The position numbers and the translations under genes are program-made. From NCBI GenBank assembly GCA_029547185.1, contig JAKPPU010000032.1, positions 62,001 to 126,000 of the forward strand: a DNA stretch of 64,000 bases. The letters run 5' to 3'. The notes under the pieces are model-generated. The model was not told the origin of the DNA and ran no database searches. It was given only the letters and a program-made list of their open reading frames with translations. Positions 21,700-62,011 of the stretch are shown piece after piece; positions within the stretch are counted from its first letter, which is position 1; each line of letters begins with the position of its first letter. Origin of the DNA: Deltaproteobacteria bacterium. Lineage in GTDB: Bacteria; Desulfobacterota; Desulfomonilia; UBA1062.

Positions 21700-22092
21700 G
21701 TGAAGCTGAGACCGCATCATATCCTGTGCGTACAGTTTCTTCCCGACGGCGATACCGGGCGGGGCAGGGAATACAAGGAGATGGAGACGCGGATCAAGGA
21801 GGTCATGAGACAGCCGGACGACACGCTGATCGAGGTAACCAAGGGTGTGGATGATTTGTGCGCCCCGTGTCCCGACTGTGCCGATGGCCGCTGCAACAAC
21901 AGGTTCGGCGATGAAGCTTCCGTACGGAAATGGGATGCGCGGGTCATCGGGGGACTGGGGATCTCGTTCGGTGAGAGCATGAGCGCAAAGGCTCTCCACA
22001 CCCTCATCAGGAGCAAGGCCCCTCTCGCATTCTGCAGGGACCGGTGTCCCTGGCGACCGGCGTGCGGGGTCTTCGGGAAGATCGGGGGCTAG
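21700..22092 (+). CDS. DUF1284 domain protein
   Basis: The 130-residue protein starts with KLRPHHILCVQF, the hallmark of DUF1284, and has a VDDLCAPCPDCADGRCNN cluster and a C-terminal FCRDRCPWRPACGVF, eight cysteines that could bind iron-sulfur or zinc. It starts at a GTG behind ggagaatag, five bases after the previous stop. The frame stops at TAG 22090, but the same frame continues directly into a DUF2284-like tail (see next entry), so its C-terminus may once have been longer. Confidence 0.8.
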   Translation: MKLRPHHILCVQFLPDGDTGRGREYKEMETRIKEVMRQPDDTLIEVTKGVDDLCAPCPDCADGRCNNRFGDEASVRKWDARVIGGLGISFGESMSAKALHTLIRSKAPLAFCRDRCPWRPACGVFGKIGG

Positions 22093-22245
22093 GTCTTCTG
22101 CAAGAACCCGAGGCAATCGAGGCCGACCGTCGAGGCCCTTGCGGTGGACGTCTACCAGACAGTCCGGCGTGCCGGATATCCCATAGAAGTCAGGTCGGAT
22201 TTCTCCCAGGAAATGGACCGCTATGCGGTCCTGCTCGTCGAATAG
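22093..22245 (+). pseudogene. DUF2284 C-terminal remnant in frame after the DUF1284 stop
   Basis: Directly after TAG 22090-22092 the same frame reads VFCKNPRQSRPTVEALAVDV and on to GYPIEVRSDFSQEMDRYAVL, ending in VE and a stop at 22245. This matches the C-terminal pattern of DUF2284 putative metal-binding proteins (CRxPxxxRPSMEAxGIDVxKTxxxAG...YGLxLxE). No start codon with a ribosome site exists in this piece, so it is either a gene remnant or a nonsense-interrupted extension of the DUF1284 protein. From 22246 to 22414 nothing else is seen. Confidence 0.55.
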
Positions 22246-22414
22246 CTACTTTCCCCCTGACTCATCCCTGTTTGAGAAGGCCTTTTTCAGGGTTATTCTT
22301 TTAAGTATCTGTAAGCCCTTTTTATCGAAAGATACCGAAGCTCCTTTCGGATGAGGCAGCTCCAATCTGCAGCAGATCTGAAGGTATGATGCAAGGACAA
22401 AGGAGAAGATTCCC

Positions 22415-22894
22415 ATGGAAGTTCCCGCATGTGGAAAGAGCCTGGAAAGCAGAGTATCACGGCATACCAGCCCTCTTGTAAACCGGGAGATAATGACCCA
22501 GACAGAGAAATCCCTGCTGTTCTATGCGGAGCATCCGGATCAGATAGACGACCGGATAAGCATGCTCAAGGGAGAGTGGGACATCGAGAGGACGCTGGAG
22601 GCCAATGCCTCCATCCTGGAATTGTACAGCCTCTTCATATCCGCAATCATGAGGAGAAGGCTGTACATCCTGCTCGGGATAGCCGTCGTGGGTTTTCTCC
22701 TTCAGCATGCGATTCAGGGATGGTGCCCTCCGGTTTCAGTCTTCAGGCGTCTGGGGATCAGGACAAAGGAGGAGATTCAGCTCGAGCTCTACGGCCTGCG
22801 CATGCTCAAGGGCGATTTCGACGGGATTCTCGAGATAAGCGGAATGGACCCGAGGGACCGTGTCAAGAGGGTCATCGAAGTGCTGAGCACGTAG
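22415..22894 (+). CDS. YgaP-like/DUF2892-type small membrane protein
   Basis: The 159-residue protein has a central membrane hairpin (RRRLYILLGIAVVGFLLQHA) followed by IQGWCPPVSVFRRLGIRT. That signature is typical of the DUF2892/YgaP transmembrane family, where the cysteine-containing loop follows the hairpin. The C-terminus adds a helical EIQLELYGLRMLKGDFDGIL tail. Two starts are possible: ATG 22415 with an ideal aaaggagaa site (used here) and ATG 22493 with gggaga, which would give a 133-residue protein closer to the domain boundary. Confidence 0.75.
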   Translation: MEVPACGKSLESRVSRHTSPLVNREIMTQTEKSLLFYAEHPDQIDDRISMLKGEWDIERTLEANASILELYSLFISAIMRRRLYILLGIAVVGFLLQHAIQGWCPPVSVFRRLGIRTKEEIQLELYGLRMLKGDFDGILEISGMDPRDRVKRVIEVLST

Positions 22895-22922
22895 TTCCCG
22901 CTTTTTTTCCCGTGAGGCAACG

Positions 22923-23168
22923 GTGGCGCTCAGGCTGACAGCCCTGGAAGAGAGAATCAAGAGGCTTAAGTTCGTCGGAGCCCGGCAGATCGGAAAAGGC
23001 AGGAGCCGCTTGCGCCATTACATGAAAATCCCGGGTCCGGGAATCATCGCCGGAGCGGCGGATGACGACCCCTTGAGGCCATGGCTGTCAGGTCTGTACG
23101 TGGCAGGACAGCGGAGAGGAAGAGGTGTCGGCACGAAACCGGTGGAGGCCGGACTGCTCAGAAGGTAA
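22923..23168 (+). pseudogene. Probable GNAT acetyltransferase remnant
   Basis: The frame ends with DDPLRPWLSGLYVAGQRRGRGVGT, very like the PWLxxLYVxPxxRGxGIGxxL acetyl-CoA loop of GNAT enzymes, then stops 12 codons later. A complete GNAT would need about 60 more residues after this point, and the 50 residues before it do not form the usual N-terminal strands. A GTG at 22923 would start the piece, without a good ribosome site. It is read as a decayed fragment next to the convergent sugar dehydrogenase gene. Confidence 0.5.
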
Positions 23169-23177
23169 AGGGCTTCA

Positions 23178-24410
23178 TTATTTATAGACGAGCCGCAGGA
23201 TCTTGTCGTCTCCCTTCCTGGGAGTTCCTCTGCCGTCGCGGTTGCTCGTCAGGACATAGAGATTTCCATCCGGACCAGTGACGACATCACGGAGCCTCCC
23301 GTACTTCCCGCTCGACCAGTCCTCTCCGAAGAGCCGCTCGATGGAGGTCACCGTGTACCCCCTGCCCGATCTTTCGAGGCCTATGCGCACGAGAGCTTCG
23401 GCTTTGAGGGTTGCCAGATAGAGATCTCTGCGGAAAAACGTCATCCCGGCAGGGGGTGTCGCCTTGCCGGGCCAGAATACGATGGGATCGACATAGGGCT
23501 TCATGTTCACCTTGCCCAGGACCCGGGGCCACCCGTAGTTGCCGCCTTTGCGGATGATAATCACCGAGTCTTTTCCATGCAGCCCGAACTCGCCGGATGG
23601 GCCGTGTACGGAGGAAAAAAGGCTGCCGGTGTCGGGGTCCCACGCAAGGCCCTGCGGGTTGCGGAGACCGTACGCGTAGACAGGGGAGTTCCCGAAAGGG
23701 TTGTCTTTGGGGATGGAGCCGTCGGGAGTGAGCCGGAGTATCTTCCCTCCGAGGTTGGAGAGATCCTGTGCTGTTTGAGGATGCGTGGCGTCGCCGGTAC
23801 AGACGTAGAGCATCCTGTCCGGTCCGAATGCGATCCTTCCTCCGTCATGGAAGCGTGCTGCAGGGAGACGGTCGATGATGACCCTGTCGGACACAGCCGT
23901 CTTCCCGGTGTCCCTCAGGCGTTCGACCCTGTTATAGGATTTGATGCCCACCCGGTGGGTATACATGACATAGAGATAGGGCTTTAGCGGGTAATCGGGA
24001 TGGAGTGCAAGCCCCATCAGCCCGCCCTCGCCGAGGGATGAGGCAGGGATGAAGGCGTACGGCGTATCGAGAAGCTTTCCCCTGTCGATCATCCGTATCC
24101 TCCCCGGCCTCTCGGTGACAAGCGCCCTTCCGTCGGGAAGAAACACGAGCTCCCATGGTATCTCGAGATCTTGGGCAAAGGTCTCGACAGTGAAATCCCG
24201 GGGGCTCGGTATGAAAACATCGTGGACCTTCTGAGGCACGGTGCCGACAACCGGGTTTCCTGATCGAGGGCTCTCGGATATTCCAAAAGTCTCCGGGCAG
24301 GGAGCGACGATCCAGACAAAAGCGATGACCAGGAACAGGGCAAAGACCCTTCCTCTGCGGACTGACATGCCGATTTGCATAAAACCGTTGCCATAGCGGT
24401 GTCTTGTCAT
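23178..24410 (-). CDS. PQQ-dependent aldose sugar dehydrogenase (YliI/Hhip type), exported
   Basis: The 410-residue protein begins with an export signal (RRGRVFALFLVIAFVWIVAP). It folds as a six-bladed glucose/sorbosone dehydrogenase propeller: IPWELVFLPDGRALVTERPG, GLMGLALHPDY, HDGGRIAFGPDRMLYVCTGD, YAYGLRNPQGLAWDP and GNYGWPRVLGKV are family blocks that supply the active-site His, Gln and Arg. These enzymes oxidise aldose sugars in the periplasm with PQQ, though several homologues have lost activity. The start at 24410 lies behind gggaggagg; an earlier ATG at 24431 has no site. It is divergent from the DUF2795 array. Confidence 0.9.
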   Translation of the reverse strand: MTRHRYGNGFMQIGMSVRRGRVFALFLVIAFVWIVAPCPETFGISESPRSGNPVVGTVPQKVHDVFIPSPRDFTVETFAQDLEIPWELVFLPDGRALVTERPGRIRMIDRGKLLDTPYAFIPASSLGEGGLMGLALHPDYPLKPYLYVMYTHRVGIKSYNRVERLRDTGKTAVSDRVIIDRLPAARFHDGGRIAFGPDRMLYVCTGDATHPQTAQDLSNLGGKILRLTPDGSIPKDNPFGNSPVYAYGLRNPQGLAWDPDTGSLFSSVHGPSGEFGLHGKDSVIIIRKGGNYGWPRVLGKVNMKPYVDPIVFWPGKATPPAGMTFFRRDLYLATLKAEALVRIGLERSGRGYTVTSIERLFGEDWSSGKYGRLRDVVTGPDGNLYVLTSNRDGRGTPRKGDDKILRLVYK

Positions 24411-24799
24411 GCCTCCTCCCTCGGTACCCATGGAGATGCATTCATGTGATGATTCCCTGTAATGGAGGATACGGGTAACAGGCCGGGTCTCAATTCCCGT
24501 TCCTTATGGAAGAAAGGAAGGGATCGGGCAAAATGGATAACTTGCATATTCATATTAGATCGACAAAAATCACTGGAAATAGCCTTATACAAATTAAAAT
24601 TGGCAATAATCAGGAAACCGATAAGTCCAATAAGAGGCAATCAAATGTAAGTGATAAACCACACGGGCAGGGTGAAAGCCAGCCCTAATGAGATGGGGCA
24701 AGCATTGAGAAAGGTAACCCACAGCCTATAATAAATATTTAGAAAAACCATGCAGAGAGAAGGAATTAAGATAAATTGATAGAAATAGAGGGTGTATAA
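24411..24799. promoter_or_regulatory. AT-rich upstream region of the DUF2795 array
   Basis: The region is clearly richer in A and T than its neighbours, especially 24535-24800, and precedes the first of seven DUF2795 genes. It must hold the divergent sugar-dehydrogenase promoter and probably the array promoter; I cannot fix exact -10 and -35 boxes. Short frames (for example 24506-24688) have no family resemblance and are not called. Confidence 0.4.
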
Positions 24800-24991
24800 A
24801 TGCCAGTCAGTATTGTCCAGCTCGATAAATTTATCACGGGAACGAATTTCCCTGCAAATAAGAATGACCTGAGGAAGACGGCCCGCGAGAACTGTGCCCC
24901 CGACCTGATCATCGATCTCATAAACAACCTTCCCGACCGCAGGTTCAATTCCGAGACGGATGTGAATCGAGCTATATACGACATCGAGTAG
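24800..24991 (+). CDS. DUF2795 protein, array copy 1
   Basis: This 63-residue protein consists of one DUF2795 domain: SIVQLDKFITGTNFPANKND, then LRKTARENCAPDLIIDLINN and LPDRRFNSETDV, closing with a DIE end. The shared family frame is YLxGIxFPxxKxxLxxxAxxNxAPxDVxxLLxxLPDxxYxSxxDVxxAI. DUF2795 is a small helical domain of unknown function. The ATG follows gagggtg. It is the most divergent copy at its N-terminus (FITGTNFP instead of YLxGIxFP) and leads the array. Confidence 0.85.
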   Translation: MPVSIVQLDKFITGTNFPANKNDLRKTARENCAPDLIIDLINNLPDRRFNSETDVNRAIYDIE

Positions 24992-25075
24992 GAGTGCTCT
25001 CAGAGGAGGGAGGAATGGCAAAGAGCATGCAGGCCTTTGCCGTGCATGCTGAACGTGAAGGAAGAGAGGTGACAA

Positions 25076-25267
25076 ATGCCTGTCAACGCAGCTGAACTAC
25101 AATGGTATCTCGAAGGGATAGATTTCCCGGCCACAAAGGATGAAGTGGTCAACCTGGCGCGCTACAACCATGCAACCGATGGCGTCATGCAGTTGCTCAA
25201 GAAGCTGCCGGACAGGGAATACTCTTCACCCGAGGATGTCATCGAAACCTCCGGTGTCGGTGATTAG
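25076..25267 (+). CDS. DUF2795 protein, array copy 2
   Basis: This 63-residue copy reads AAELQWYLEGIDFPATKDEV and LLKKLPDREYSSPEDV. Its last ten residues (DVIETSGVGD) keep the family length but not the DVxKAIGxIE consensus of the other copies, so the tail has diverged or was exchanged. The residue N/APxD region reads NHATDGVMQLL. The ATG follows gagaggtgac. Remains of a further copy lie directly downstream (25317-25382). Confidence 0.85.
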   Translation: MPVNAAELQWYLEGIDFPATKDEVVNLARYNHATDGVMQLLKKLPDREYSSPEDVIETSGVGD

Positions 25268-25316
25268 GATCACGAAATGGGCCGGTAATGGAACACGAGG
25301 CCAAGGTGATCACGAC

Positions 25317-25382
25317 AAGTTTCCATATCAGAGCTTCCTTTGTCTCAGTGATGTCGACAAGGCGATAGGAGATATCGAGTAA
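25317..25382 (+). pseudogene. 3' remnant of an eighth DUF2795 copy
   Basis: In the frame starting at 25317 the sequence reads KFPYQSFLCLSDVDKAIGDI and a final E before TAA. It aligns with the C-terminus of copy 3 (RLPDQSYPSPVDVNKAVGRVD) with no gaps, but nothing upstream restores the first 40 residues in any frame. It is best read as the tail left by unequal recombination between neighbouring copies. An alternative is a 115-bp insertion into copy 2, since GATGTC occurs at 25235 and again at 25350. Confidence 0.6.
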
Positions 25383-25459
25383 ATAGTTCAAAGAGAAAAC
25401 CTACACACAGTTGATCAGCACAAAACCAAGACATAAACAAAGAACAAGGAGGTTGAAAC

Positions 25460-25648
25460 ATGGTAAGCACGGGAGAACTCCAGCAATACCTGCACGGAAT
25501 CCATTATCCGGCAAGCAAGAACGATCTGATGAAGACAGCTCAGGGCAACAAGGCCCCGAAGGACGTCATGGACCTGATTGGAAGGCTGCCTGACCAGAGC
25601 TATCCTTCACCCGTAGATGTCAACAAGGCTGTGGGGCGCGTCGATTAG
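25460..25648 (+). CDS. DUF2795 protein, array copy 3
   Basis: The 62-residue copy begins MVSTGELQQYLHGIHYPASK, continues with NDLMKTAQGNKAPKDVMDLI and ends DVNKAVGRVD, a full domain. Its start shares the MVSTG opening with copies 6 and 7, marking these three as one subgroup. The ATG has an excellent acaaggaggttg ribosome site. The long spacer to copy 4 (187 bp) shows no gene. Confidence 0.88.
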   Translation: MVSTGELQQYLHGIHYPASKNDLMKTAQGNKAPKDVMDLIGRLPDQSYPSPVDVNKAVGRVD

Positions 25649-25835
25649 CCCGGCGCCCGAATAGCCAATCAGGAGAGTGAGTCTTCGAAAGAAAATCACT
25701 TGCGTTTGAGGACAAGAAGGAAAGAAACGGCTGGCGGCATCAGCATAACGGCGATCGAGGAATACTGTTGCGAAGAGCTCACGAAAGGCTGACAGCCGTT
25801 TGTCAAAACGCAAGGAGCGGAAAGGAGGCAGGGAG

Positions 25836-26039
25836 ATGGCAAAATTCGGTGATGTAAGCACTGCGGAGGTGGAAACGTATCTCCGCGGAATGGATTTTCC
25901 ATCAGGAAAAGACGGCTTGATCAAGAAGGCACGTGAAAACAATGCACCGGACGATGTCATGGATCTTCTGAACAGCCTTCCGGATCAGGAATATCACACA
26001 CCCATTGACGTGAGCAAGGCTATCAGCAAAATCAAATAG
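25836..26039 (+). CDS. DUF2795 protein, array copy 4
   Basis: A 67-residue copy, slightly longer at the N-terminus (MAKFGDVSTAEVETYLRGMD), with NAPDDVMDLLNSLPDQEYHT and a basic end, KAISKIK, instead of the acidic IE or VD. The ATG at 25836 is preferred over 25800 because aaaggaggc precedes it. It forms a subgroup with copy 5 (SGKDGLIKKA and SRKDGLIQKA). Confidence 0.88.
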   Translation: MAKFGDVSTAEVETYLRGMDFPSGKDGLIKKARENNAPDDVMDLLNSLPDQEYHTPIDVSKAISKIK

Positions 26040-26083
26040 GAAAGCATCCTGGTGAACCGACTGCCGGGATGAAAGGTGGGGTG

Positions 26084-26275
26084 ATGGGGGTAAGTAGCTT
26101 TGATCTTCAACACTATCTCAAAGGGATGAGCTACCCTTCACGGAAGGATGGTCTCATCCAAAAGGCACAGGAAAACAGGGCGCCCCTGGATGTAATCGAT
26201 CTGCTCAACAACCTTCCGGACCGGGAGTTTCACTCGGCTGCGGACGTGAGCAAGGCAGCAGGCGAGCTCGAATAG
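26084..26275 (+). CDS. DUF2795 protein, array copy 5
   Basis: The 63-residue copy reads MGVSSFDLQHYLKGMSYPSR, KDGLIQKAQENRAPLDVIDL and LPDREFHSAADVSKAAGELE. The ATG at 26084 lies behind aaaggtgggg and gives the family length; an ATG at 26069 would add five residues. It follows copy 4 by only 44 bp, the shortest spacer besides that between copies 6 and 7, consistent with a tandem duplication of copy 4. Confidence 0.86.
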   Translation: MGVSSFDLQHYLKGMSYPSRKDGLIQKAQENRAPLDVIDLLNNLPDREFHSAADVSKAAGELE

Positions 26276-26458
26276 AGTCAGCCGGACGATCGAGACAGCT
26301 CGGATGAAGGAGGAAGGGAAACTCGATATCTCCTCTTTTTCATGCGGTCCCGGGCAGAAGGCCGGTTCGAACAATGGGTGCCGTACATCGGCTTTCGAAA
26401 ACGGAAGGCGGAATATGCATCGGGAAGAAGAAAAATATGAAGGAAAGGAGGTGTTACT

Positions 26459-26647
26459 ATGGTCAGTACCGGTCAAATATTAGAATATCTCCACGGAATA
26501 GATCTTCCCAAGGACAAAGCCGGCTTGGTGAAATACGCCCAGAGCAAGAATGCACCCAAGGACGTGCTTGACATCCTCAACAGGCTGCCGGACCAGCAGT
26601 TCGGAAACGCCGCAGAAATTACCCATGCCATAGGTCAGATCGAGTAG
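26459..26647 (+). CDS. DUF2795 protein, array copy 6
   Basis: The 62-residue copy reads MVSTGQILEYLHGIDLPKDK, LVKYAQSKNAPKDVLDILNR and LPDQQFGNAAEITHAIGQIE. The ribosome site aaaggaggtg is ideal, so strong translation is likely. The 183-bp spacer before it carries no gene. Copies 6 and 7 share the same MVSTG(Q/D)IL opening and the nucleotide string atggtcagtaccggt, the clearest sign of recent duplication within the array. Confidence 0.88.
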   Translation: MVSTGQILEYLHGIDLPKDKAGLVKYAQSKNAPKDVLDILNRLPDQQFGNAAEITHAIGQIE

Positions 26648-26698
26648 AGGGACACCTGGTCGGTTTGTGAAACCGGGATGACAGAGAAGGAGATGAAA

Positions 26699-26887
26699 AT
26701 GGTCAGTACCGGTGACATACTTCAGTATCTCCGAGGCGTACATTTCCCTATCAGAAAAGACGGCCTGCTGAGCAGGGCCCGCGACAATAACGCTCCACAG
26801 GCCATTATGGACGTCCTTGGTAAACTTCCCGATCAGGTATACAGATCGACTGCGGACATCAGTATGGCTGTAGGTGACATCGAATAA
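26699..26887 (+). CDS. DUF2795 protein, array copy 7
   Basis: The 62-residue copy reads MVSTGDILQYLRGVHFPIRK, DGLLSRARDNNAPQAIMDVL and KLPDQVYRSTADISMAVGDI plus a final E. The ATG at 26699 lies behind agaaggagatg; an ATG at 26678 would add seven residues. It ends the array; 590 bp without a convincing gene separate it from vgrG. Confidence 0.86.
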   Translation: MVSTGDILQYLRGVHFPIRKDGLLSRARDNNAPQAIMDVLGKLPDQVYRSTADISMAVGDIE

Positions 26888-27476
26888 TCAGTCTTCAACA
26901 CTCCCAGGTAACAATGACCGGACACCTCCTGTGGACGATCGACCTCCTCATAGGGGGGACCGGGCAGATATCACATGGAACGGAAAGCGCTCCTTTGGCC
27001 TTCAGAGATCATAGGAGTGCTTTCATGTGAGGTTGCTCCAAACTCTCTTTTCCCCCATCTCTCCTTCTCGAAAAGATTTCCCGGGCAGGCAAGGTACGTG
27101 TGACAACCCTTGAGTAATAAATCGAAGAATGATATAGCTATATCCCTGGGTTGATATCCGTTCCGCATACCCGGGTGTTGTAAATTGAATCCTGGGCAGG
27201 TCATAGGCTAAGAGGAGATTGTGATAGGGGAGTATTTTCAGGCAAGCACTGACCAGCGATCCATCCACAATGACAAGCCCGGCGTCCGCACTGGTGGGGA
27301 TATTCCCGGGAAAGAGCCCCATCAGGGCATTCAGGGCTTTTGTCTGCCCGGTCCTCTGGAGCAGCGGCTCTCCATCATCTCCCCCGATGATCATCACCTC
27401 GTCGGTGCTTTCTCCACTGAAAAAACATTCCTGACACCATCCACATTCATCGGAGGATTTTAAAAGAGGGAGTATC
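26888..27476. other. Long gap between the DUF2795 array and vgrG
   Basis: No gene is supported here. A minus-strand frame runs from inside vgrG to 27023 and a plus-strand frame covers 27221-27463; neither has a ribosome site or a recognisable domain, although the minus-strand peptide (CFFSGESTDEVMIIGGDDGE) is not obviously low complexity. The vgrG ribosome site (agagggag) is at the right end. A horizontally acquired junction is possible. Confidence 0.3.
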
Positions 27477-29543
27477 ATGAGCGCAGCCAATATCAGCCAA
27501 ACCGATCGTCTGCTCAGGATCGATACGCCTTTGGGCAAAGACAAGCTGTTCGTTACGAGGTTCGAGGGCACGGAAGGCATCTCCATGCCGTTCAAATTCG
27601 AGCTCGACCTCATTTCGGAAGATTTCATAGATATCAAGGACATCATGGGAAAAGGCGTGACGGTCTCGCTCATCCTGGCAGACGGATCCGAGAGATACTT
27701 TAACGGGGTGGTCTCCAGCATGGCCTATCGGGGAAGTACGCAGAGAGCCTCCAGGTACGGGGCCGTGATCGTTCCCTGGTTCTGGATGCTCACCCGCCGA
27801 AAGGACTGTCGCATTTTTCAGGCCGTCATCAACGGTGAAAACAAGGTCGAGGATATCGTGCGCAAGGTGTTCGAAGACGCGGGCTATCCGGATTTTCACT
27901 ATGAGTTCCATCTCACCGGCACCTATCCCAAGAGAGAGTACTGCGTTCAGTACAACGAGACGGATTTCAGCTTCGTCTCGCGCCTGCTGGAAGAAGAGGG
28001 GATCTACTATTTTTTCAAGCACGAAAAGGGAAAGCATACCATGTACATCTGTGACAATCCCGGAGGGCACGAGCCCTGCCCGAACCAGAAATCTGCCGTG
28101 TATCTCACAACAGAGGGCGGAAAGCTCGACGAGGACATCATCACCGATTTCGGGATATCGAAGGAAATCCACTCGGGCGAGTTCACGGTCAATGACTACA
28201 ACTTCGAAACCCCCACCGCGAATCTGCTGACGCTGACGAGCAGCTCCATCTCGGAGAGCGATAAGAAGCTCAAGCTCTATGAATACCCCGGCAACTTCGA
28301 TGCGATGAACAGGGGCGCCGACCTGGCCAGGATCCGCATGGAGGCGGAAGAGTCACAGTATACAAAGGGCGTCGGGAGAAGCAACTGCAGGGCGTTTGCA
28401 AGCGGATACCGCTTCAGTCTCACCACGGACGATCTCCTCGACGGATCCTATCCCTACAAGGGGGACTATGTACTCACATCCGTAACCCACACCGCCGTCG
28501 AGGGAAGTTACTTCGCCGGGGAGGAAGGAGAAGGAGAGACCGAATATACGAACACCTTCACCTGCATCCCTCACGGCATCCCCTACCGGCCGCAGCGCAT
28601 CACGCAGAAACCCTCCATCCCGGGGGCCCAGACCGCTGTCGTGACAGGGCCGCAGGGAAAAGATATCCATACCGACCAGTACGGCAGGGTCAAGGTGCAG
28701 TTCCATTGGGACAGGCAGGGGGAAAAAGACGAGAAGACCTCCTGCTGGATCAGGGTGGGACAGATGTGGGCGAGCAAGGGATACGGCGCCATGTTCATAC
28801 CCAGGATCGGGGACGAGGTGATCGTCGAGTTCCTCGAGGGAAACCCTGACCGGCCCCTCATCACGGGAAGCGTCTATCATGCCGCCAACATGCCCCCGTA
28901 TCAGCTCCCCGAACAGGAGGCCCTGAAGACGGCCATAAGGACGAATACCTCGCCCGGGGGGAAAGGCTTCAACGAGATCAGCTTCGAGGATTACAAGGGC
29001 AAGGAGCAGATCTTCATCCACGGCGAGCGCAATCTCGACATCCGGGTGAAGAACGACATGCTCCAGACCGTGAACCACGACTCGAACGTGACGGTGAAAA
29101 ACAACCGTCTCGTCACCGTCGAGAAGGACCTCACCGAAACGGTCAAACAGGACAGGATAGAGAAGATCGCGAGGGATCTCAGCATCACCGTAAGCGGGAA
29201 TGATACGAAGGATGTCACCGGCGCGCTCACGGCCACGGTCAAGGGAGACGTGAGCGAGACGTTCAAGAGCAGCCACTCCGAGACCGTGACCGAAAAATAC
29301 GCGCTCAAGGCAAAGAGCGTCCTCATCGAGGCGGACAATGAGATTACGCTCAAGGTGATGAACACCAGCATCACGATCACATCGGCCGGGATCACCATCA
29401 AGTCGTCAAGCTCGCTTGAGCTCGGGAGCGACGGTCAGACAGTGGTCAAGGGCGGGACGGTGAAGATCACTGCGGCCGGCAACGCCAATTTCGAGGCAGG
29501 GGGCGTCGCTGCCGTCACGGGCTCACTGGTCAAGATAAATTGA
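27477..29543 (+). CDS. vgrG: Type VI secretion tip protein VgrG
   Basis: The 688-residue protein has the gp27-like base (residues about 1-380, with LFVTRFEGTEGISMPFKFEL and CVQYNETDFSFVSRLLEEEG), the gp5 OB-fold (DIHTDQYGRVKVQFHWDR, CWIRVGQMWASKGYGAMFIP and IGDEVIVEFLEGNPDRPLIT) and a beta-helical needle rich in T, V and K repeats to the end. There is no C-terminal effector extension, so toxins must be separate cargo. VgrG trimers cap the T6SS tube and are usually tipped by PAAR, found here at 33691. The ATG follows gagggag. The next genes read the same way with short gaps and overlaps. Confidence 0.96.
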   Translation: MSAANISQTDRLLRIDTPLGKDKLFVTRFEGTEGISMPFKFELDLISEDFIDIKDIMGKGVTVSLILADGSERYFNGVVSSMAYRGSTQRASRYGAVIVPWFWMLTRRKDCRIFQAVINGENKVEDIVRKVFEDAGYPDFHYEFHLTGTYPKREYCVQYNETDFSFVSRLLEEEGIYYFFKHEKGKHTMYICDNPGGHEPCPNQKSAVYLTTEGGKLDEDIITDFGISKEIHSGEFTVNDYNFETPTANLLTLTSSSISESDKKLKLYEYPGNFDAMNRGADLARIRMEAEESQYTKGVGRSNCRAFASGYRFSLTTDDLLDGSYPYKGDYVLTSVTHTAVEGSYFAGEEGEGETEYTNTFTCIPHGIPYRPQRITQKPSIPGAQTAVVTGPQGKDIHTDQYGRVKVQFHWDRQGEKDEKTSCWIRVGQMWASKGYGAMFIPRIGDEVIVEFLEGNPDRPLITGSVYHAANMPPYQLPEQEALKTAIRTNTSPGGKGFNEISFEDYKGKEQIFIHGERNLDIRVKNDMLQTVNHDSNVTVKNNRLVTVEKDLTETVKQDRIEKIARDLSITVSGNDTKDVTGALTATVKGDVSETFKSSHSETVTEKYALKAKSVLIEADNEITLKVMNTSITITSAGITIKSSSSLELGSDGQTVVKGGTVKITAAGNANFEAGGVAAVTGSLVKIN

Positions 29544-29560
29544 TCCAGGAGATGATCGAC

Positions 29561-29695
29561 ATGCCCGATCGGCAGTCTGTAACGGACATCCCCGCCCTTG
29601 GCACGACGGCGGCACAGGCAGCAGACAGGGGGCGCAGAAGGCTGGCAAGAGGGCCGGAATACGGACCGAACCCCGGGAGATGCAAAAGGCAATGA
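29561..29695 (+). CDS. Possible 44-residue small protein between vgrG and the metallopeptidase gene
   Basis: An ATG at 29561 behind ccaggagatg opens a 44-residue frame (MPDRQSVTDIPALGTTAAQA and an Arg/Gly-rich tail). Its TGA overlaps the next ATG as ATGA at 29692-29695. The ribosome site and coupling speak for translation; the composition does not resemble a known adaptor. It might be a leader peptide for the next gene. Confidence 0.4.
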   Translation: MPDRQSVTDIPALGTTAAQAADRGRRRLARGPEYGPNPGRCKRQ

Positions 29696-31974
29696 GCTTA
29701 CACACCGTGAGATATCAGATCTCGCTCCACTATCTGGGCGAGGGGTATGTTCGGAGAGACGAACAGAGATACCGGTGCCGTTTCGAGCTCAAAGAGGACG
29801 GAGCGGAGTCTCTGGAGAGCCTTCCCCATGTTATCCCCAACGTGGTGAGCGGGACCGAGCCTCCCGATCCTGCCGCCGTCGAGGCAGCCATGCCCGGAAG
29901 CGAATCCGTGAATCCTCCCGCGGACACGGTCTACCGTCTCGTGATCACGGACAACCATACCCTCCCCGAGGTGGATGCAGGGCTTCTGGGCAATACGGGC
30001 AGCCCCAACGGGGACAGAACCTCCCGGCCGGTATACTACAGGAAGAGCAACCGCAGATGGATGAGGGACGTCCGGCCCCTGGTGCCGTTTCGTATCATCA
30101 TCCGGAGATTCGACGGTGTGCCGGGGAATGAAGAGCGGGTCGATCTGGATGCAGGGGTCAGGGTGGTCATCGAGATCAAAGATCCGGCGGAAGAGAAGGG
30201 TATGCACGCCGAGAGCGACCGCAACGCGGTGAAGAATTGCCTGGGCGATTTCTTCAGGAAATACAGCCGCTCCGGAAACGACCCGAGCGGGGGCGACGAC
30301 AACTGCCCCGAACCCTTTGCGGGACACCGTACGATTTCGGACCCGAGCCCGGGAATAAACGCAGGCAAGGTCGTCAGGAAGATCCCCTATGTCCCGTCTC
30401 CCACCCCCGACACCGCCCTGCCGGGAGGAATCCGGCCCGGCCGGGTCAGCACGGAGGGGATATACGCGTCCAATCACGTGACGTTCGATCCCGAGCTCAT
30501 ACAGACCATGGAGGACGGCAGCAAGGTGAAGATCGGGGTCGTCGACTATGTCTTTTCTCCCCTGCCCATCGGCGGAGACAACTACCGCTTCCTCATCAGG
30601 CTCGTGGACGGATCGGGCAGGGATATCCGGGAAACCCGGATCGACGGTGCGGCGGTCGGCCTCACGGACGACCGTGGGGAAATCCTTCCGCTGCTGCGCG
30701 CCTACTGCACGGGCAGGTTCGTGATCTGGCGCAGGATCGACGTCCGCCTCATGCTCGCGGCGAACAGGGCCTGTCCCGAGGATATCGACTGGGAAAAGAT
30801 CAGGGGCTTCTACCGGCATGCCTTCATGGAGATAAGCGGACCCCTCGAGATAAGAGAGCTTCCCCTCACGGGCTGGAGACAGAGCATCATCGACGTGTTC
30901 AACGGCGGCGAGTCATCCGGCGAATACGGAGACCTGGACAACTTCCGGCCTGCAGGAGCGGGGCCGGAGGACGTGAACTACAACGACATCTATTCGCAGG
31001 GGCTCTTTCCCTCCTTCATGAACCCTGCCTCCAGGACGAACCAGGAGGTCGAAAATCTCTGCAGCGACATCCTCACCAAGGCGGTCCAGGCGCTTCCTCC
31101 CCTCAAGGGCGGATATGCGACCCCGGAAAGCCGGAATGTGGACGGCGAGGGTGAAGGCTTCTACATGCTCTACGTAAAGAACAACACGGGAGCAGCGCCG
31201 GGAGGCATGTGGCTGGGGGACGGCAGACTCGCCGTATCGAAGCTCACCGGGGCCCTCTCCGGGATGGAAAGCGGGATGACCGCCCATGAGATGGGCCACG
31301 GCCTGTTCCTGAGGAATTCGATCTCCCCGGGGCTCAAGCGTCTGGACCCGGATACGGGCGGCTCGGCAGATTTTCTCGTCCGGTACAGGAAGGCAGGGGA
31401 TCCTGATTTCGAAGTCATTCGACTTCTCCATCCCACCCGCAATACCTATCCCGAAGACCACGACCAGCATTTCTCACACAAGTGTGTCATGGCCGATCTC
31501 GATCGCCAGGCATTCTGCGGGATCTGCTCCTTGGGCCTGAGGTTCTACGACCGCATCAGGATCCAGGACAAAGGTCAATACCTGAGCAGGATCATGGAGG
31601 GCTCCTTCGTGGACGTGGAGAACCCGGACAACGGTGCGAAGATCGTCCATGCCCTCTACGACCCGTCCGCTCCCGATGAGATTAAACTGAGCGAGGTCAT
31701 CCCTGCCATGGCCGCGAACCAGGAAATCTACCTCATGGCCGTGGGCCCGGAGCGGGAATACAGCTTTGCCGGTACGCCCGAAAAGGGCCGCGTCAATCTC
31801 GGCGCCTCGGGAAAGGACCCCATATCCGACTGGAGCTCGAGCAATACGGGCATCGTGAGCCTGAAGATGGCGGGCGGCATCGGCGTGATCGCCACGGCAA
31901 AGAGGCCGGGCACCGCGACGATCAAGTTCAGCCGATACGGGAAATCGGTTGCTGCAGTTATCACCGTTGCATGA
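29692..31974 (+). CDS. Candidate VgrG-linked effector with HExxH metallopeptidase motif and C-terminal Ig-like domain
   Basis: The 760-residue protein is not one I recognise. It has no signal peptide or membrane helix. About two-thirds in, GMTAHEMGHGLFLRN gives a thermolysin-type zinc site H532-E533-M-G-H536, and a histidine-rich block NTYPEDHDQHFSHKC (D589-H596) about 55 residues later could supply the third ligand. The last about 75 residues (ISDWSSSNTGIVSLKMAGGI then GTATIKFSRYGKS) are a BIG_2-like Ig domain. The N-terminal half is unassigned. Position directly after vgrG and before PAAR is typical of T6SS cargo. Zinc protease activity is inferred from the motif and neighbourhood only. Start 29692 is coupled to the small upstream frame; 29680 is an alternative. 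Confidence 0.7.
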   Translation: MSLHTVRYQISLHYLGEGYVRRDEQRYRCRFELKEDGAESLESLPHVIPNVVSGTEPPDPAAVEAAMPGSESVNPPADTVYRLVITDNHTLPEVDAGLLGNTGSPNGDRTSRPVYYRKSNRRWMRDVRPLVPFRIIIRRFDGVPGNEERVDLDAGVRVVIEIKDPAEEKGMHAESDRNAVKNCLGDFFRKYSRSGNDPSGGDDNCPEPFAGHRTISDPSPGINAGKVVRKIPYVPSPTPDTALPGGIRPGRVSTEGIYASNHVTFDPELIQTMEDGSKVKIGVVDYVFSPLPIGGDNYRFLIRLVDGSGRDIRETRIDGAAVGLTDDRGEILPLLRAYCTGRFVIWRRIDVRLMLAANRACPEDIDWEKIRGFYRHAFMEISGPLEIRELPLTGWRQSIIDVFNGGESSGEYGDLDNFRPAGAGPEDVNYNDIYSQGLFPSFMNPASRTNQEVENLCSDILTKAVQALPPLKGGYATPESRNVDGEGEGFYMLYVKNNTGAAPGGMWLGDGRLAVSKLTGALSGMESGMTAHEMGHGLFLRNSISPGLKRLDPDTGGSADFLVRYRKAGDPDFEVIRLLHPTRNTYPEDHDQHFSHKCVMADLDRQAFCGICSLGLRFYDRIRIQDKGQYLSRIMEGSFVDVENPDNGAKIVHALYDPSAPDEIKLSEVIPAMAANQEIYLMAVGPEREYSFAGTPEKGRVNLGASGKDPISDWSSSNTGIVSLKMAGGIGVIATAKRPGTATIKFSRYGKSVAAVITVA

Positions 31975-31990
31975 GAGGGAGCGATCGGGC

Positions 31991-33604
31991 ATGAACGGAC
32001 TCAAGCTCACATTCGAACTGCAGAGAAACGAGGCCGTGTTCGGGGAGTCTGTCCCCTTTGCCGTGACCCTCACCCATACCTTCAAGTCGCCTGTGCTCGT
32101 CAATGCCCTCGATCCGGTGAACCGGGCACTGAAGGTGTTCATGCGAAGACTCGACGGCGAGGAGCGTACTGCGGACCAGATGACTCCTATCCTTCGGGAC
32201 GGCCTTTCTAGAGGCGCCCCGGTGGTCCCCGGGGGAGTGAGGCTGCTCCCGGGGCAGAAGCTTGAATTCAAAGACGACCTGCTCCGGTGGTTTGCCCACA
32301 TCCCTGCCGGGACCTACAGGGTCTGGGCAGAATACGAGGGGCTCCTGCGCACGGCCGCGTCCGAGCCGGCGGAGCTGCGGATCTCGCCCGCCCTGATCCT
32401 CGCCGCCAATACGCCCCGCTGGGGCCTCCAGATGCCCGATGCCCCGTATGCGGCGGCATGGGCCCACCGCCACGAAAGGGGCATCATGCTCTTCTACCAG
32501 CTGCAGAGCCCCGACCTTCCGAGGAACCCGGTACGCTCGATCCGGGCAGGCGTCATCGGAGAGCAGGTCTCTGCCCACGCCGCCTGCCTGCCGGGCGGTG
32601 AGAACCTCGTGGGGCACCTCTACTGGTTCACGGTCAAGGAGCGGTTCTTCTTCGTGCCCTTTGACGTGAAGAACGGGGTGACCGGTCCGGCAGTGGAGGT
32701 GAAGAAGCTTCCGTTCAAGGGATGGCCCATCCCGTCGGGGCTCTCCCTCAAGGACGGGTCGTTCCTGGTGCCCTTTACGGATCACCGGAGGACAAAGGTC
32801 GCCCTGATGCATGTATTCCCGAACGGCGAGGCGAGCGCCGTCATTCTCGATCTGGAGAAGAACTCGCCCCTCGGGCCGCACATGAGCTTCTTCGAATACG
32901 ACAGGAGGCTCCACTTCATCTGGACGAAGGCAAAAGGCAGGCAGATCGACTACGCCATGCTGCCGCTCGACGACATGGAATCGGGTTTTGCCGCGAGGAC
33001 GATCCACATCGCGAACGATCCGGTCCTGTGGTTCGATGCCTACCTCGACAGGGGCATGAACATCCTCCAGCTCAAGTCCCTTTACCTGGGCGACCCGCCT
33101 CCATCGGGCGAGCAGGAAGGGGAGGAGCCTCTTGCCAGGGTCATGGCCTGGTGCATAACCTCGAAGGACAGGCAGATCGTATGCACCCCGATCAGCGCCA
33201 CGGACAGCTCCATGGGCAGGCCCGTATCCTTTCAGACCGGCAGCGCCGGGGATGTAAGCGTGCTCGGATCGGTCACCACCTCGAAGGGCGGCCTCGCGCT
33301 CCTTCTGGTGAATGGAAACGGAAGGATCTTTTATGCGAGCACCATGCGCAGGAGGCTCATGCCCATCGAGGATGCCGTCGGCATCCCCGTTACCCAGGCG
33401 AACTGCCCGAGTCTCATGCGCGGGAGCAGGTATCCCTGGGTGCACCTGAGATTCATCACGGACGCCAGGATGATCAGCTACGTCAGGCTCGAGCCGGTAA
33501 GTGAGTTCGATCCGGTGGAGAGCGAGACGAGGCCCCTCGATCTCGTGTCCGATGAATGGACCGAGGTCACGGATGAGACCGAAGGGAGAAGCCAGAGTGA
33601 ATGA
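31991..33604 (+). CDS. Hypothetical beta-rich protein of the VgrG island (Ig-like plus propeller-like)
   Basis: The 537-residue protein starts with a beta-sandwich segment like the intracellular proteinase inhibitor/BsuPI fold (LTFELQRNEAVFGESVPFAV to about residue 110, including AGTYRVWAEYEG). It then shows repeated strands with recurring W/F-x-P blocks (GWPIPSGLSLKDGSFLVPFT, HMSFFEYDRRLHFIWTKAKG) suggesting a beta-propeller. No signal peptide and no catalytic motif are visible. It begins 16 nt after the metallopeptidase gene. Roles as inhibitor/immunity protein, chaperone or second cargo are all open; the inhibitor-like N-terminus makes immunity the first hypothesis. Confidence 0.65.
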   Translation: MNGLKLTFELQRNEAVFGESVPFAVTLTHTFKSPVLVNALDPVNRALKVFMRRLDGEERTADQMTPILRDGLSRGAPVVPGGVRLLPGQKLEFKDDLLRWFAHIPAGTYRVWAEYEGLLRTAASEPAELRISPALILAANTPRWGLQMPDAPYAAAWAHRHERGIMLFYQLQSPDLPRNPVRSIRAGVIGEQVSAHAACLPGGENLVGHLYWFTVKERFFFVPFDVKNGVTGPAVEVKKLPFKGWPIPSGLSLKDGSFLVPFTDHRRTKVALMHVFPNGEASAVILDLEKNSPLGPHMSFFEYDRRLHFIWTKAKGRQIDYAMLPLDDMESGFAARTIHIANDPVLWFDAYLDRGMNILQLKSLYLGDPPPSGEQEGEEPLARVMAWCITSKDRQIVCTPISATDSSMGRPVSFQTGSAGDVSVLGSVTTSKGGLALLLVNGNGRIFYASTMRRRLMPIEDAVGIPVTQANCPSLMRGSRYPWVHLRFITDARMISYVRLEPVSEFDPVESETRPLDLVSDEWTEVTDETEGRSQSE

Positions 33605-33690
33605 GCCGAAAGACAGGGCGTCACATCCCGGACATCGTGATGGCCGACCAACCGGGTCCGGGAGAGACGCCGATGGAGGGGAGGTGAGCC

Positions 33691-33981
33691 ATGCCGCCTG
33701 CAGCTCGAGTCGGTGACCTGCATACGTGCCCGGCGGCTAACGGGCCCGTGCCCCACGTGGGAGGACCCATCGCCGGGCCGGGCGTCCCAACGGTGCTTAT
33801 CGGGTGTATGCCCGCAGCAGTGATGGGCGACGTGGCCGTGTGCGCAGGACCGCCGGCTACGATCGTGAAGGGCTCGGCAACCGTCCTCATAGGGGGAAGG
33901 CCTGCTGCCCGCATGGGAGACCAGACAGCGCACGGCGGCTCCATCGTCGGGGGCCTGCCCACCGTCATGATCGGGGGATAG
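33691..33981 (+). CDS. PAAR domain protein (T6SS spike tip)
   Basis: The 96-residue protein is a bare PAAR domain: MPPAARVGDLHTCPA (the naming PAAR motif at residues 3-6), GPGVPTVLIGCMPAAVMGD, ATVLIGGRPAARMGDQTAHG and a final GLPTVMIGG. The conserved Cys and His (C13, H22, C51, H81 by position) would bind the zinc at the tip of the cone that sharpens VgrG. The ribosome site ggaggggaggtgag is strong. It lacks any C-terminal toxin, so effectors must be separate. Confidence 0.93.
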   Translation: MPPAARVGDLHTCPAANGPVPHVGGPIAGPGVPTVLIGCMPAAVMGDVAVCAGPPATIVKGSATVLIGGRPAARMGDQTAHGGSIVGGLPTVMIGG

Positions 33982-34025
33982 GCTGGATGGAGCCCACGGC
34001 ACGCCTTGGCAGCACCCTTGAGGGA

Positions 34026-34931
34026 TCAGCGCTTGAAGATGTCCTTGATGGACCAGCCGCCTTTCTTCTTTTCATCGGGCGGCTTCGGGGAGCCTTCCGG
34101 AGCGTCGCTTCCCGGCCCCGGCGGGGCCGGCTCGGGCTCCTCGTACTCGGCAAGCCTCCCTTCGCCGAGGAACCGAAGGACCGGTCCCTGCGGGCTCAGG
34201 GAGAGGACATCGTTTACGTTGAGGGCTGCCTGGAGATCGATCGGGCGGCCGTTGATGGAGATGCTCTTCCTGCCGGTGAGGTCTTTGATCCAGTACTTGC
34301 CCTGAGCGAAAAAGATCTGGGCATGCCGGTCCGCAATGGAAGGATGGGTCATGATGAGGTCGTTGCCGGGCCCCTGACCGATGTTGACGGGAAGCTCCCT
34401 GTAGGAGTTGAGCGTGGGGCCGTACTGGACGATGAGCGGAACCTGGACCTTCCTGACGGCGATTTCCTCCGGTCGCCCCGGCGCTTCGGGTGCAGGCTTT
34501 TTCGGAGGTTCGGGAGCGGCTCTCTCCCCTGCAGGCGGCACCGGTACATCGACCTGCATCATGGGCTCCGGCCGGGTCACATTGAGGTTCTGCTCGATGT
34601 CGCGCATCTCGATGGCCTTGGCGAGGAAGCTCACCTTGGGCCCGTCCGGAGAGAACATGATGACGTCCCCGTCTTTGAGGAACACCTCTTTCACCTGCTT
34701 TCCGTTGACGAAGGTGCCGTTCGTGCTCCTGTCGACGAGCTTGAATCGGTTCCCCTCACGGACGATCTCGGCGTGGCTCCTCGATACGGCGGCAAGGTCC
34801 TTGGGAAACTGCATATCGCACGTCGGGTTCCTGCCTATGGTAATGGCAGGTCCGCTGAATTCCTGGATCCGGCCCTTGAGCGGGCCCTGGATATGGATGA
34901 GCTGGACAATGATAACCGGTTCAGTGTTCAT
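34026..34931 (-). CDS. Double FHA domain protein
   Basis: The 301-residue cytosolic protein has two forkhead-associated domains. The first spans residues about 20-100 (ITIGRNPTCDMQFP, AAVSRSHAEIVREG, VDRSTNGTFVNGKQV) and the second about 180-265 (VNIGQGPGNDLIMTHPSIAD, RHAQIFFAQGKYWIKDLTG, SISINGRPIDL). A Pro/Glu-rich linker joins them and a charged tail follows. The first domain has the full GRxxxxxxxxxxxxxSRxHAxxx...NGTxxNG phosphothreonine-binding set. FHA proteins act with the kinase and phosphatase encoded just downstream in T6SS-type threonine-phosphorylation switches. The start at 34931 follows gggaggc. It is divergent from the PP2C operon. Confidence 0.9.
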   Translation of the reverse strand: MNTEPVIIVQLIHIQGPLKGRIQEFSGPAITIGRNPTCDMQFPKDLAAVSRSHAEIVREGNRFKLVDRSTNGTFVNGKQVKEVFLKDGDVIMFSPDGPKVSFLAKAIEMRDIEQNLNVTRPEPMMQVDVPVPPAGERAAPEPPKKPAPEAPGRPEEIAVRKVQVPLIVQYGPTLNSYRELPVNIGQGPGNDLIMTHPSIADRHAQIFFAQGKYWIKDLTGRKSISINGRPIDLQAALNVNDVLSLSPQGPVLRFLGEGRLAEYEEPEPAPPGPGSDAPEGSPKPPDEKKKGGWSIKDIFKR

Positions 34932-35044
34932 GGATCTGCCTCCCTTCATCTTGTATGGGGACGCCGGGACATCATTTCTAGACCCCAACGTTACTACAAT
35001 TACGCCAAATCACTGTCAAGAAGATTGAACGGATAAGGGAGAGT

Positions 35045-35773
35045 ATGAACAGATCGGTCGGCAGAACAGATGTCGGGCTTGTGCGGAAGAACAACGAGGA
35101 TGCGTACGCAATCGACGACGCGGCAGGCTACTGCGCCCTGGCCGACGGCATGGGGGGCGCGGCCGCAGGCGAGATAGCGAGCCGGATCTTCGTGGACACC
35201 GTGCGCGGGATCTTTCCGGGCAGAGAGCCTTCGCCTCCGGGCGAATGCTCCACGCTGGTGCAGAGGGCCTTCGTCATCGCCAATCAGAGGATGCTCGACC
35301 ACGTAAGGGACAACCCCTCTCACCGGGGCATGGGCTGTACGGCAGAGCTCCTCGTGTATGCGGATGACGGCTTCGTCATAGGCCACATGGGGGACAGCAG
35401 GACCTACCGGTTGAGGAACGGTGTGCTCAAGCAGCTCACCAGGGACCACTCGCTCGTGCAGGAGCAGATCGAGAAGGGCATCATCACCCCCAGGGAGGCA
35501 CGGACGAGCCCCCACCGGAACATCATCCTGTGCGCCCTGGGGACGAGCGAAAACCCTGCCCTGGACATCATCAGGGGGAAGACCTTTGTCGGCGACCTGT
35601 TCCTCCTGTGCTCGGATGGCCTCACGGACATGATCGAAGACGATCGGATCCTCAGGATCCTAACCTCTTCGCAGGACCTCGCCGGGACCGCGGACGATCT
35701 CATTGCAGCAGCGAAGCAGGCAGGCGGAAAGGACAACGTCACCGTAGTGCTTTCACGGGTGGAGGCAGGATGA
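35045..35773 (+). CDS. PP2C-type Ser/Thr protein phosphatase (Stp1/PppA-like)
   Basis: The 242-residue soluble protein has the bacterial PP2C motifs: SVGRTDVGLVRKNNEDAYAI, ALADGMGGAAAGEIAS, GCTAELLVYADDGFVIGHMG, DSRTYRLRNG, LCSDGLTDMI and GKDNVTVVLS. Metal-binding aspartates are all present. It would reverse the kinase encoded 1 kb downstream and thereby control FHA binding, as PppA does for T6SS in Pseudomonas. It overlaps the protease gene by ATGA. Confidence 0.94.
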   Translation: MNRSVGRTDVGLVRKNNEDAYAIDDAAGYCALADGMGGAAAGEIASRIFVDTVRGIFPGREPSPPGECSTLVQRAFVIANQRMLDHVRDNPSHRGMGCTAELLVYADDGFVIGHMGDSRTYRLRNGVLKQLTRDHSLVQEQIEKGIITPREARTSPHRNIILCALGTSENPALDIIRGKTFVGDLFLLCSDGLTDMIEDDRILRILTSSQDLAGTADDLIAAAKQAGGKDNVTVVLSRVEAG

Positions 35774-36714: not shown

Positions 36715-36770
36715 GGCAGGCTTCATAGGCATTGCTTATTGTGAAAACTCCTCATATGATAGGAACATCT

Positions 36771-61678: not shown

Positions 61679-62011
61679 GAAACACCTCCTCGATCATATG
61701 TGTCCGGCGATTCTACGCACTACTATTAAAAATTCATTTCCCTGCAGATATCAATGATACACAATAATACCATCACCTTGCGGGCAATGAAACAAGAAAT
61801 ATAACATTAGTTTTTTAACAAGATCCTCTTTTAAGAAATTATATTTTACAAAAGAAATATTGCAGTATTTCTACATAACGTTTTGAATAAATTGAAATAT
61901 TACATGTTTGACATATCCTCCCCCGGCAAGTATAGAGTATGTATTGAATTTTTGGCCTTATGAGGCCCGTACGAAAGAACTGAACAACTGTATTAGGGGC
62001 GGGGTGTTAGA
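61679..62011. promoter_or_regulatory. AT-rich divergent promoter region
   Basis: Between the acyl-CoA synthetase and NlpC/P60 genes. It is strongly AT-rich (61790-61920), with a small hairpin ggcct-tatg-aggcc at 61954-61967 just before the NlpC/P60 ribosome site. No riboswitch consensus was recognised. Confidence 0.4.

Follow-up and report, generated by a model that had tools for sequence, protein, structure and literature searches.

The window analysed here is a 64,000-nt stretch (positions 62001–126000 of contig C113) of a metagenome-assembled genome of a Deltaproteobacteria bacterium (G000; 4.19 Mb, 96.0% complete, 5.3% contaminated), which at 24800–26887 carries an array of seven tandem genes of the DUF2795 family (PF11387). 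We found that this array is an old, diversified set of paralogues, mainly under purifying selection and with one position (6) loosening, and that within the collections searched it is a trait peculiar to this genus. We tentatively read it as one operon making small, acidic, folded and largely non-redundant DUF2795 stress-protection proteins that act as adaptors, a reading to which we give a little less than an even chance.

The array consists of seven complete open reading frames (ORFs) on one strand, encoding 63, 63, 62, 67, 63, 62 and 62 amino acids. The original prediction, made from the sequence without database searches, had described seven complete single-domain DUF2795 genes of 62–67 residues, and this was borne out by a profile search in which all seven proteins matched PF11387 at 51.6–72.5 bits, above the curated cut-off of 25 bits and with near-complete coverage of the 54-position profile. 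PF11387 was the sole family listed for each copy at E values up to 0.001; the copies are stand-alone, single-domain proteins. As had also been predicted, ribosome sites were evident by eye, in the form of a purine-rich Shine-Dalgarno-like stretch upstream of the ATG of each copy, and copies 4, 5 and 7 could instead begin further upstream. The gaps inside the array measure, in order, 84, 192, 187, 44, 183 and 51 nt. The genes, and a relic lying among them, are as follows:

24800–24991, + strand: DUF2795 copy 1 (position 1), PF11387 51.6 bits
25076–25267, + strand: DUF2795 copy 2 (position 2), PF11387 72.5 bits, the most acidic window copy, with its own C-terminal end
25317–25382, + strand: relic, the C-terminal tail of a dead DUF2795 copy, stop included (hmmsearch i-E 0.0024, profile 43–63)
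25460–25648, + strand: DUF2795 copy 3 (position 3), PF11387 66.7 bits
25836–26039, + strand: DUF2795 copy 4, PF11387 70.8 bits
26084–26275, + strand: DUF2795 copy 5, PF11387 64 bits
26459–26647, + strand: DUF2795 copy 6, PF11387 60.6 bits
26699–26887, + strand: DUF2795 copy 7, PF11387 59.4 bits

Arrays were also present in six other genomes of the genus (G001–G006), with 5, 6, 6, 6, 6 and 6 copies, respectively; one of these, G003 (same contig as locus L058), is Syntrophaceae bacterium UBA6087 of the Syntrophales. A tree was among the checks that had been proposed, and we built one of 50 rows, which rests on few columns and leaves many forks open. In this tree, the second copies of all seven arrays formed a single clade (support 100/100), and the altered C-terminus of copy 2 was common, by eye, to the second copies of all seven genomes. 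The first copies fell on one side of a weakly supported branch (50/0), with support of 98/94 when two solo genes of G000 were included, while the third copies formed no single group and their label needs two changes, yet they stand third in order in all seven arrays. Further along the array, copy 4 paired with G003 copy 5 (97/79) and copy 5 with G003 copy 6 (89/97), copy 6 clustered with the C99 pair of genes, the sixth copies of G004–G006 and the fifth of G002 (98/86), and copy 7 clustered with G002 copy 6 (99/58). Since copies 4 and 5 have different partners in G003, the split between them is older than those two species, with support that is not full.

These groupings revise the history originally proposed, in which the array grew by stepwise duplication. 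Tandem duplication stands, but the duplications are old, and the two signatures invoked for stepwise growth, although real, predate the species. The MVSTG start shared by copies 3, 6 and 7 proved not to be a sign of recent copying among them, since it opens copy 3 in all seven genomes as well as one gene of the C99 pair; the KDGLI block does unite copies 4 and 5, which by the tree had nevertheless separated before the window species and G003. The array has been less constant in number, with 5–7 copies among species and varying positions after the third. The relic, which is the last 21 residues (~25317–25379) of a copy, occupies part of the 192 nt that separate copies 2 and 3, retains an open frame and was detected in a small search space; it went unremarked in the original prediction, as did eight further DUF2795 places in the genome and the conserved promoter at 24705–24732. 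Weak traces of a decayed DUF2795 copy (i-E 0.14 to 3.4) were likewise found in the 412–413-nt gap between copies 3 and 4 of G004–G006, and the relic and these traces together led us to conclude that copies also get lost. The gaps with weak DUF2795 fragments are:

L045, 8947–9358: copy 3/4 gap
L046, 8780–9192: copy 3/4 gap
L047, 8949–9360: copy 3/4 gap

When copies 1–3 were compared across species by order only, the same-numbered copy was the best match in 122/126 comparisons, and the four misses concerned only first copies, of G000 and G001. Labels for positions 4–7 lean on the tree, and the companion figure of 196/204 is partly circular, which the order-only figure is not. Identity among the window paralogues was 28–56%, and the mean identity of orthologues at one position was 56–90%. 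We then considered the ratio of nonsynonymous to synonymous substitution rates (dN/dS), which is given only for pairs with a proportion of synonymous differences (pS) of 0.05–0.65; the start codons of the sister copies were taken as the nearest upstream start, which is unproven, and G003 copy 4 falls outside the position labels. For pairs at positions 1, 2, 3 and 5, together with the fourth copies of G001 and G004–G006, dN/dS was mostly 0.02–0.2 (maximum 0.29), several of these pairs having a dS near saturation, and for window copy 7 it was 0.25. Most measured orthologue pairs at positions 1–5 are thus under purifying selection.

DUF2795 occurs in both bacteria and archaea, and we asked how often it is arranged in this way. 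Among 60 genomes comprising our own and its relatives, it was present in eight: G000, 6/7 other genomes of the genus and 1/18 genomes from the rest of the class; none was found in 16 genomes of other genera of the same family or in 18 sampled from the rest of the phylum. The genus genome lacking it (G007) is only 80% complete. G000 itself holds 15 DUF2795 places, seven in the array and eight elsewhere. In a larger set of 395 phylum genomes, 12 matched DUF2795, of which five belong to this genus (7–15 places each) and seven have one place each, one of the latter falling under the family cut-off. Matches were found in 20/201 genomes of a Bathyarchaeota class, with one or two places each, and in the five two-place genomes these lie on separate contigs; no further array was seen in either of these two sets. 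PLSDB yielded 20 plasmid records with 23 DUF2795 places and at most two per record, and two of the three two-place records, when inspected, had one DUF2795 gene each within 5 kb. No phage matched. An origin of the array from phages or plasmids was considered and set aside, given the zero phage matches and the limit of two places per plasmid. Carriers found outside the genus have one or two copies, none seen clustered in the collections searched, in contrast to the seven in a row here. In those collections, no array of this size came up outside the genus, so the commonness that would have counted against the original prediction was not seen.

The array is probably transcribed as a unit, and all seven copies are likely on one transcript, judging from the following elements at its two ends:

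24705–24732, + strand: array promoter (−35 TTGAGA, 16-nt spacer, −10 TATAAT), conserved in 7/7 genus genomes
26980–27028, + strand: hairpin after the array, candidate transcript 3′ end, with no T-run (RNA fold; sub-threshold Rfam match)

TTGAGA-N16-TATAAT sits 59–67 nt upstream of copy 1 in all seven genomes and shows the highest conservation in the upstream alignment, with 27 invariant positions in the 60 surrounding columns; per 20 columns, the number of invariant positions was 0–3 in the blocks before the promoter and 3, 4 and 2 in the final three. TTGARA-N16-TATNAT matched the window once, at the array promoter, and did not occur in 100 shuffles, and none of 35 internal gaps contained a comparable promoter-like site. 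At the other end, the fold of 26975–27040 reached −25.5 kcal/mol (z −2.56), equalled by 2/200 shuffles. An Rfam search of 22000–28000 at E values up to 1 gave only a sub-threshold match to a microRNA family after the array, which amounts merely to a hairpin, and there was no hit at the gathering score in the window or in the six sister array loci; these scans give no support to a structured RNA leader or riboswitch ahead of copy 1, which we had also considered.

Across the genome, TTGARA-N16-TATAAT had six exact sites, including that of the array, whereas the reversed pattern had none. Inspected by eye, three of the remaining five stand before apparent housekeeping genes, which we take to be TolQ/ExbB-like, GtrA-like and enoyl-CoA-hydratase-like, one precedes an unrecognised protein, and one lies before no clear ORF. 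We therefore treated the sequence as an ordinary sigma-70-type, strong general promoter, and the idea that it marks a dedicated stress-sigma regulon was rejected because the other exact sites precede no evident stress genes. Array-like promoter sites were also seen upstream of solo DUF2795 genes, in 4/6 cases of the MVSAAEV type and 5/10 of the SAAELEKYL type. For the latter (upstream regions L049, L090, L093, L094, L096 and L098), the five sites read TTGARA-N16-TATWAT, and by eye L049 carries the variant TTGAGT; in G000, multiplication of this type has produced four scattered genes.

In the reading we favour, the single promoter, strong and of housekeeping type, would read all seven copies as one mRNA, from which seven small (~7 kDa), acidic, folded and largely non-redundant proteins would be made, presumably in abundance. 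Net charge was negative in 49/50 array and G000 proteins, and all window copies are acidic (−0.3 to −7.4). A structure model predicted four helices, with elements in the order helix-strand-helix-helix-strand and a predicted local distance difference test (pLDDT) score of 87.9; a more diverse second alignment lowered model confidence (pLDDT 74.4). The role of the proteins may be stress protection, because some DUF2795 genes elsewhere adjoin BON/OsmY-like, Usp, DUF4142, ferritin-like/DUF892 and sigma-subunit genes. More speculatively, each protein might act in the cytosol as a small adaptor of four helices, forming assemblies with copies of itself or with its array neighbours and binding client proteins of its own, in which case the array could supply a matched set of adaptors together.

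The proposed stress role draws on the company kept by single DUF2795 genes. In G000, triple-BON proteins are encoded at five loci, three of which have a DUF2795 place at a distance of 281, 193 and 566 bp, respectively, so that 3/7 non-array DUF2795 loci adjoin BON; none of 200,000 random placements gave as many as three in five, in a test made after the adjacency had been noticed. Two Usp genes are present at the C136 locus as well. A separate 9-kb region (G000:C114:10272–19340; L105–L107, L110, L111) holds five genes of the triple-BON type, on a contig without a DUF2795 place. Plasmid contexts had usable annotation for 11/20 hits (four inspected contexts were without annotation), and within 5–6 kb of DUF2795 these 11 showed DUF4142 six times, ferritin-like/DUF892 four times and BON three times, as raw counts. 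The three BON contexts are all from Burkholderia, are close kin and count as one or two observations; their run, on one strand, reads BON, short-chain dehydrogenase/reductase (SDR), DUF2795, hypothetical, second SDR (annotated as glucose 1-dehydrogenase in one record), DUF4142, ferritin-like/DUF892 and dehydrogenase. In Rhizobium, DUF2795 lies beside a sigma subunit and TIGR02587/TIGR02588. DUF2795 is almost absent from the open-licence literature searched and, in the portions of it covered, is named merely among proteomics results: the protein Q2Y844, labelled DUF2795, makes up 0.37% of the Nitrosospira multiformis proteome, a label that could also extend to two further proteins named in the same sentence (PMC5960693), and one DUF2795 protein appears in a table of induced Streptomyces proteins (PMC12772271).

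We consider the anatomy of the array to be well established. We regard the stress role, which is argued by analogy from these family neighbours, as moderately supported and as partly contradicted by the array's own surroundings and promoter, and several observations weigh against our reading as a whole. The BON/DUF4142/ferritin-like runs of Burkholderiaceae resemble our case in that they hold single DUF2795 genes and that BON adjoins three DUF2795 loci here, but a scan covering part of the array's own neighbours revealed no gene of the BON, Usp, DUF4142 or ferritin-like kinds; the fixed neighbour of the array encodes a sugar dehydrogenase rather than a stress protein. By coordinates, the six other genus genomes have no BON place within 50 kb of DUF2795 on the same contig. 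DUF4142 is missing from 5/11 annotated plasmid contexts, and 4/11 have none of the recurring neighbour genes. By its type, the promoter is a housekeeping one, and by eye no evident stress gene follows any of its other exact sites; a promoter-like site matching 9 of 12 positions lies within the end of copy 4, and a consensus scan of the region gave 3 sites versus 3.3 expected from shuffles, so that the case for the promoter rests on its conservation. At position 6, two close pairs had dN/dS values of 0.80 and 0.91, and comparison with G002 gave 0.35–0.47; with this position nearly free in two pairs, not every position is strongly constrained. No dN/dS value could be obtained for window copy 4, which has diverged too far from its partner in G003. 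Finally, the model gave no structure match above chance, and none in the PDB or viral models at E values up to 0.001.

The surroundings of the array are fixed on one side and variable on the other, as emerged from the neighbour comparison in other genomes that the original prediction had suggested. The fixed neighbour is:

23178–24431, − strand: glucose/sorbosone dehydrogenase (GSDH), divergent neighbour, PF07995 255 bits

This divergent GSDH adjoins the array in 7/7 genomes, and a close homologue (E below 1e-160) was found in exactly those seven of 46 genomes, five more giving weak matches only. The AT-rich region said to border the array is only mildly so (49.5% G+C at 24001–25000). On the downstream side, a VgrG gene (TIGR03361) is present as described and starts 589 nt after the array, but its presence on this side is incidental, since tblastn found no VgrG in the six sister loci within 7.5–9.7 kb each side. 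In G003, this side instead has homologues of genes from the window's serine/threonine-kinase cluster, and in the five other sister genomes a radical-SAM gene (tblastn, with Pfam run on one). The window region 27477–38015 contains VgrG, then two large ORFs without a Pfam match, then FHA and PP2C genes, followed by protease-like and serine/threonine-kinase ORFs (by eye); the later genes of this VgrG region are those with homologues near the G003 array.

The original prediction had left the choice between dosage and a diversified set of partners, and we favour diversification, because the paralogues are only 28–56% identical and most measured pairs at positions 1–5 are under purifying selection. 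If the array only multiplied the output of one protein, sequence differences would be irrelevant; paralogues would not be expected to differ so much more than same-position orthologues do, there would be no reason to keep positions distinct, as the order-only test shows them to be, and copy 2 would not be expected to retain its own tail in all seven genomes. Dosage, which we consider unlikely, does fit the conserved, strong-looking promoter, the abundance that a DUF2795 protein can reach (PMC5960693), the varying copy number with dead copies, and the near absence of constraint at position 6 in two pairs. We rate diversification above dosage, and both well above immunity. A polyimmunity locus, in which the copies would be immunity proteins against effectors of VgrG-type systems, would have the layout seen here: such loci, described in a 2012 Biol Direct survey (PMC3482391), are tandem, same-strand series of small diverged paralogues, four or more in number, and are uninterrupted by toxin genes, so a missing nearby toxin does not exclude one, and VgrG does lie downstream of the array. 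However, the sister arrays are without VgrG, several other DUF2795 sites are runs with stress-type genes, and most measured pairs are under purifying selection; the immunity genes vary in number and type even between strains (PMC3482391), whereas copies 1–3 are fixed in order across species (number, 5–7, and later positions do vary), and DUF2795 is not named in 300,000 of the 357,715 characters of the survey's text. We hold this explanation to be very improbable.

Two further alternatives concern what the proteins contact. The array and the divergent GSDH could be one functional unit in periplasmic sugar oxidation, as their adjacency in 7/7 genomes and the restriction of close GSDH homologues to those genomes would suggest. 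A second sugar-dehydrogenase link was seen in Paraburkholderia sprentiae (L118 4950–7731), where the DUF2795 gene overlaps the start of the following gene, for a membrane PQQ-dependent glucose dehydrogenase. Nevertheless, the genomes sharing the adjacency are a single clade, and the association may go back to one historical event; the genome has eight other DUF2795 places away from this site, and GSDH has an N-terminal signal-like hydrophobic stretch that the array proteins lack (by eye), which makes contact unlikely. On balance, we find a GSDH accessory role quite unlikely. We think it hardly more probable that DUF2795 is a reduced winged-helix/HTH-like domain and the array a nucleoid or RNA-binding set, and if anything somewhat less so. 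Consistent with this idea are weak Pfam echoes from single members (TBPIP winged helix 0.002, TFIIE_beta 0.0071, RecX_HTH1 0.0099), the order of elements in the model, and a weak Foldseek row for a TFIIE-beta core chain (E 5.5). In addition, the DUF2795 proteins of the Bathyarchaeota class (L079–L083, L085, L086) have a conserved basic RG-rich tail N-terminal to the domain, which suggests nucleic-acid contact in archaea. All seven window copies are acidic and without such a tail, however, and the top structure rows of a second look were EF-hand pairs, not winged helices, and were weak too.

A bolder reading makes the seven copies essential and mutually irreplaceable parts of a single hetero-oligomer, or a combinatorial set of adaptors, each serving one client; a family acting elsewhere as a single gene would have given rise to them once, in this Syntrophales genus. 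We think this rather unlikely; if it were true, the operon would be a natural experiment revealing what DUF2795 binds. The row of copies offers a ready co-expression test for DUF2795 binding partners, the seven diverged and separately conserved copies allow an internal comparison of the conserved core with the diversified parts, and the recurring BON, DUF4142 and ferritin-like neighbours make a DUF2795 role testable. Lineage-specific rows of diverged paralogues are already known, and DUF2795 forming one is not described in the literature found.

Some minor observations concern the domain itself. No chain among the sequences of solved structures matched below E 0.4. EF-hand proteins have a sequence signature with a calcium-ligand loop that was not seen in DUF2795 members: no EF-hand family appeared in Pfam listings for 38 and 40 members at E values up to 10 (HMMER filters drop most matches above ~0.1). 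An internal two-fold repeat, prompted by the symmetric helix-strand-helix model, was discarded when 226/500 column shuffles scored as high. No paper on PF11387 or DUF5789 was found in the open-licence literature searched. DUF5789 (PF19102) was weakly matched by 4/40 DUF2795 members (best E 0.0075), and it is possibly a distant sister family.

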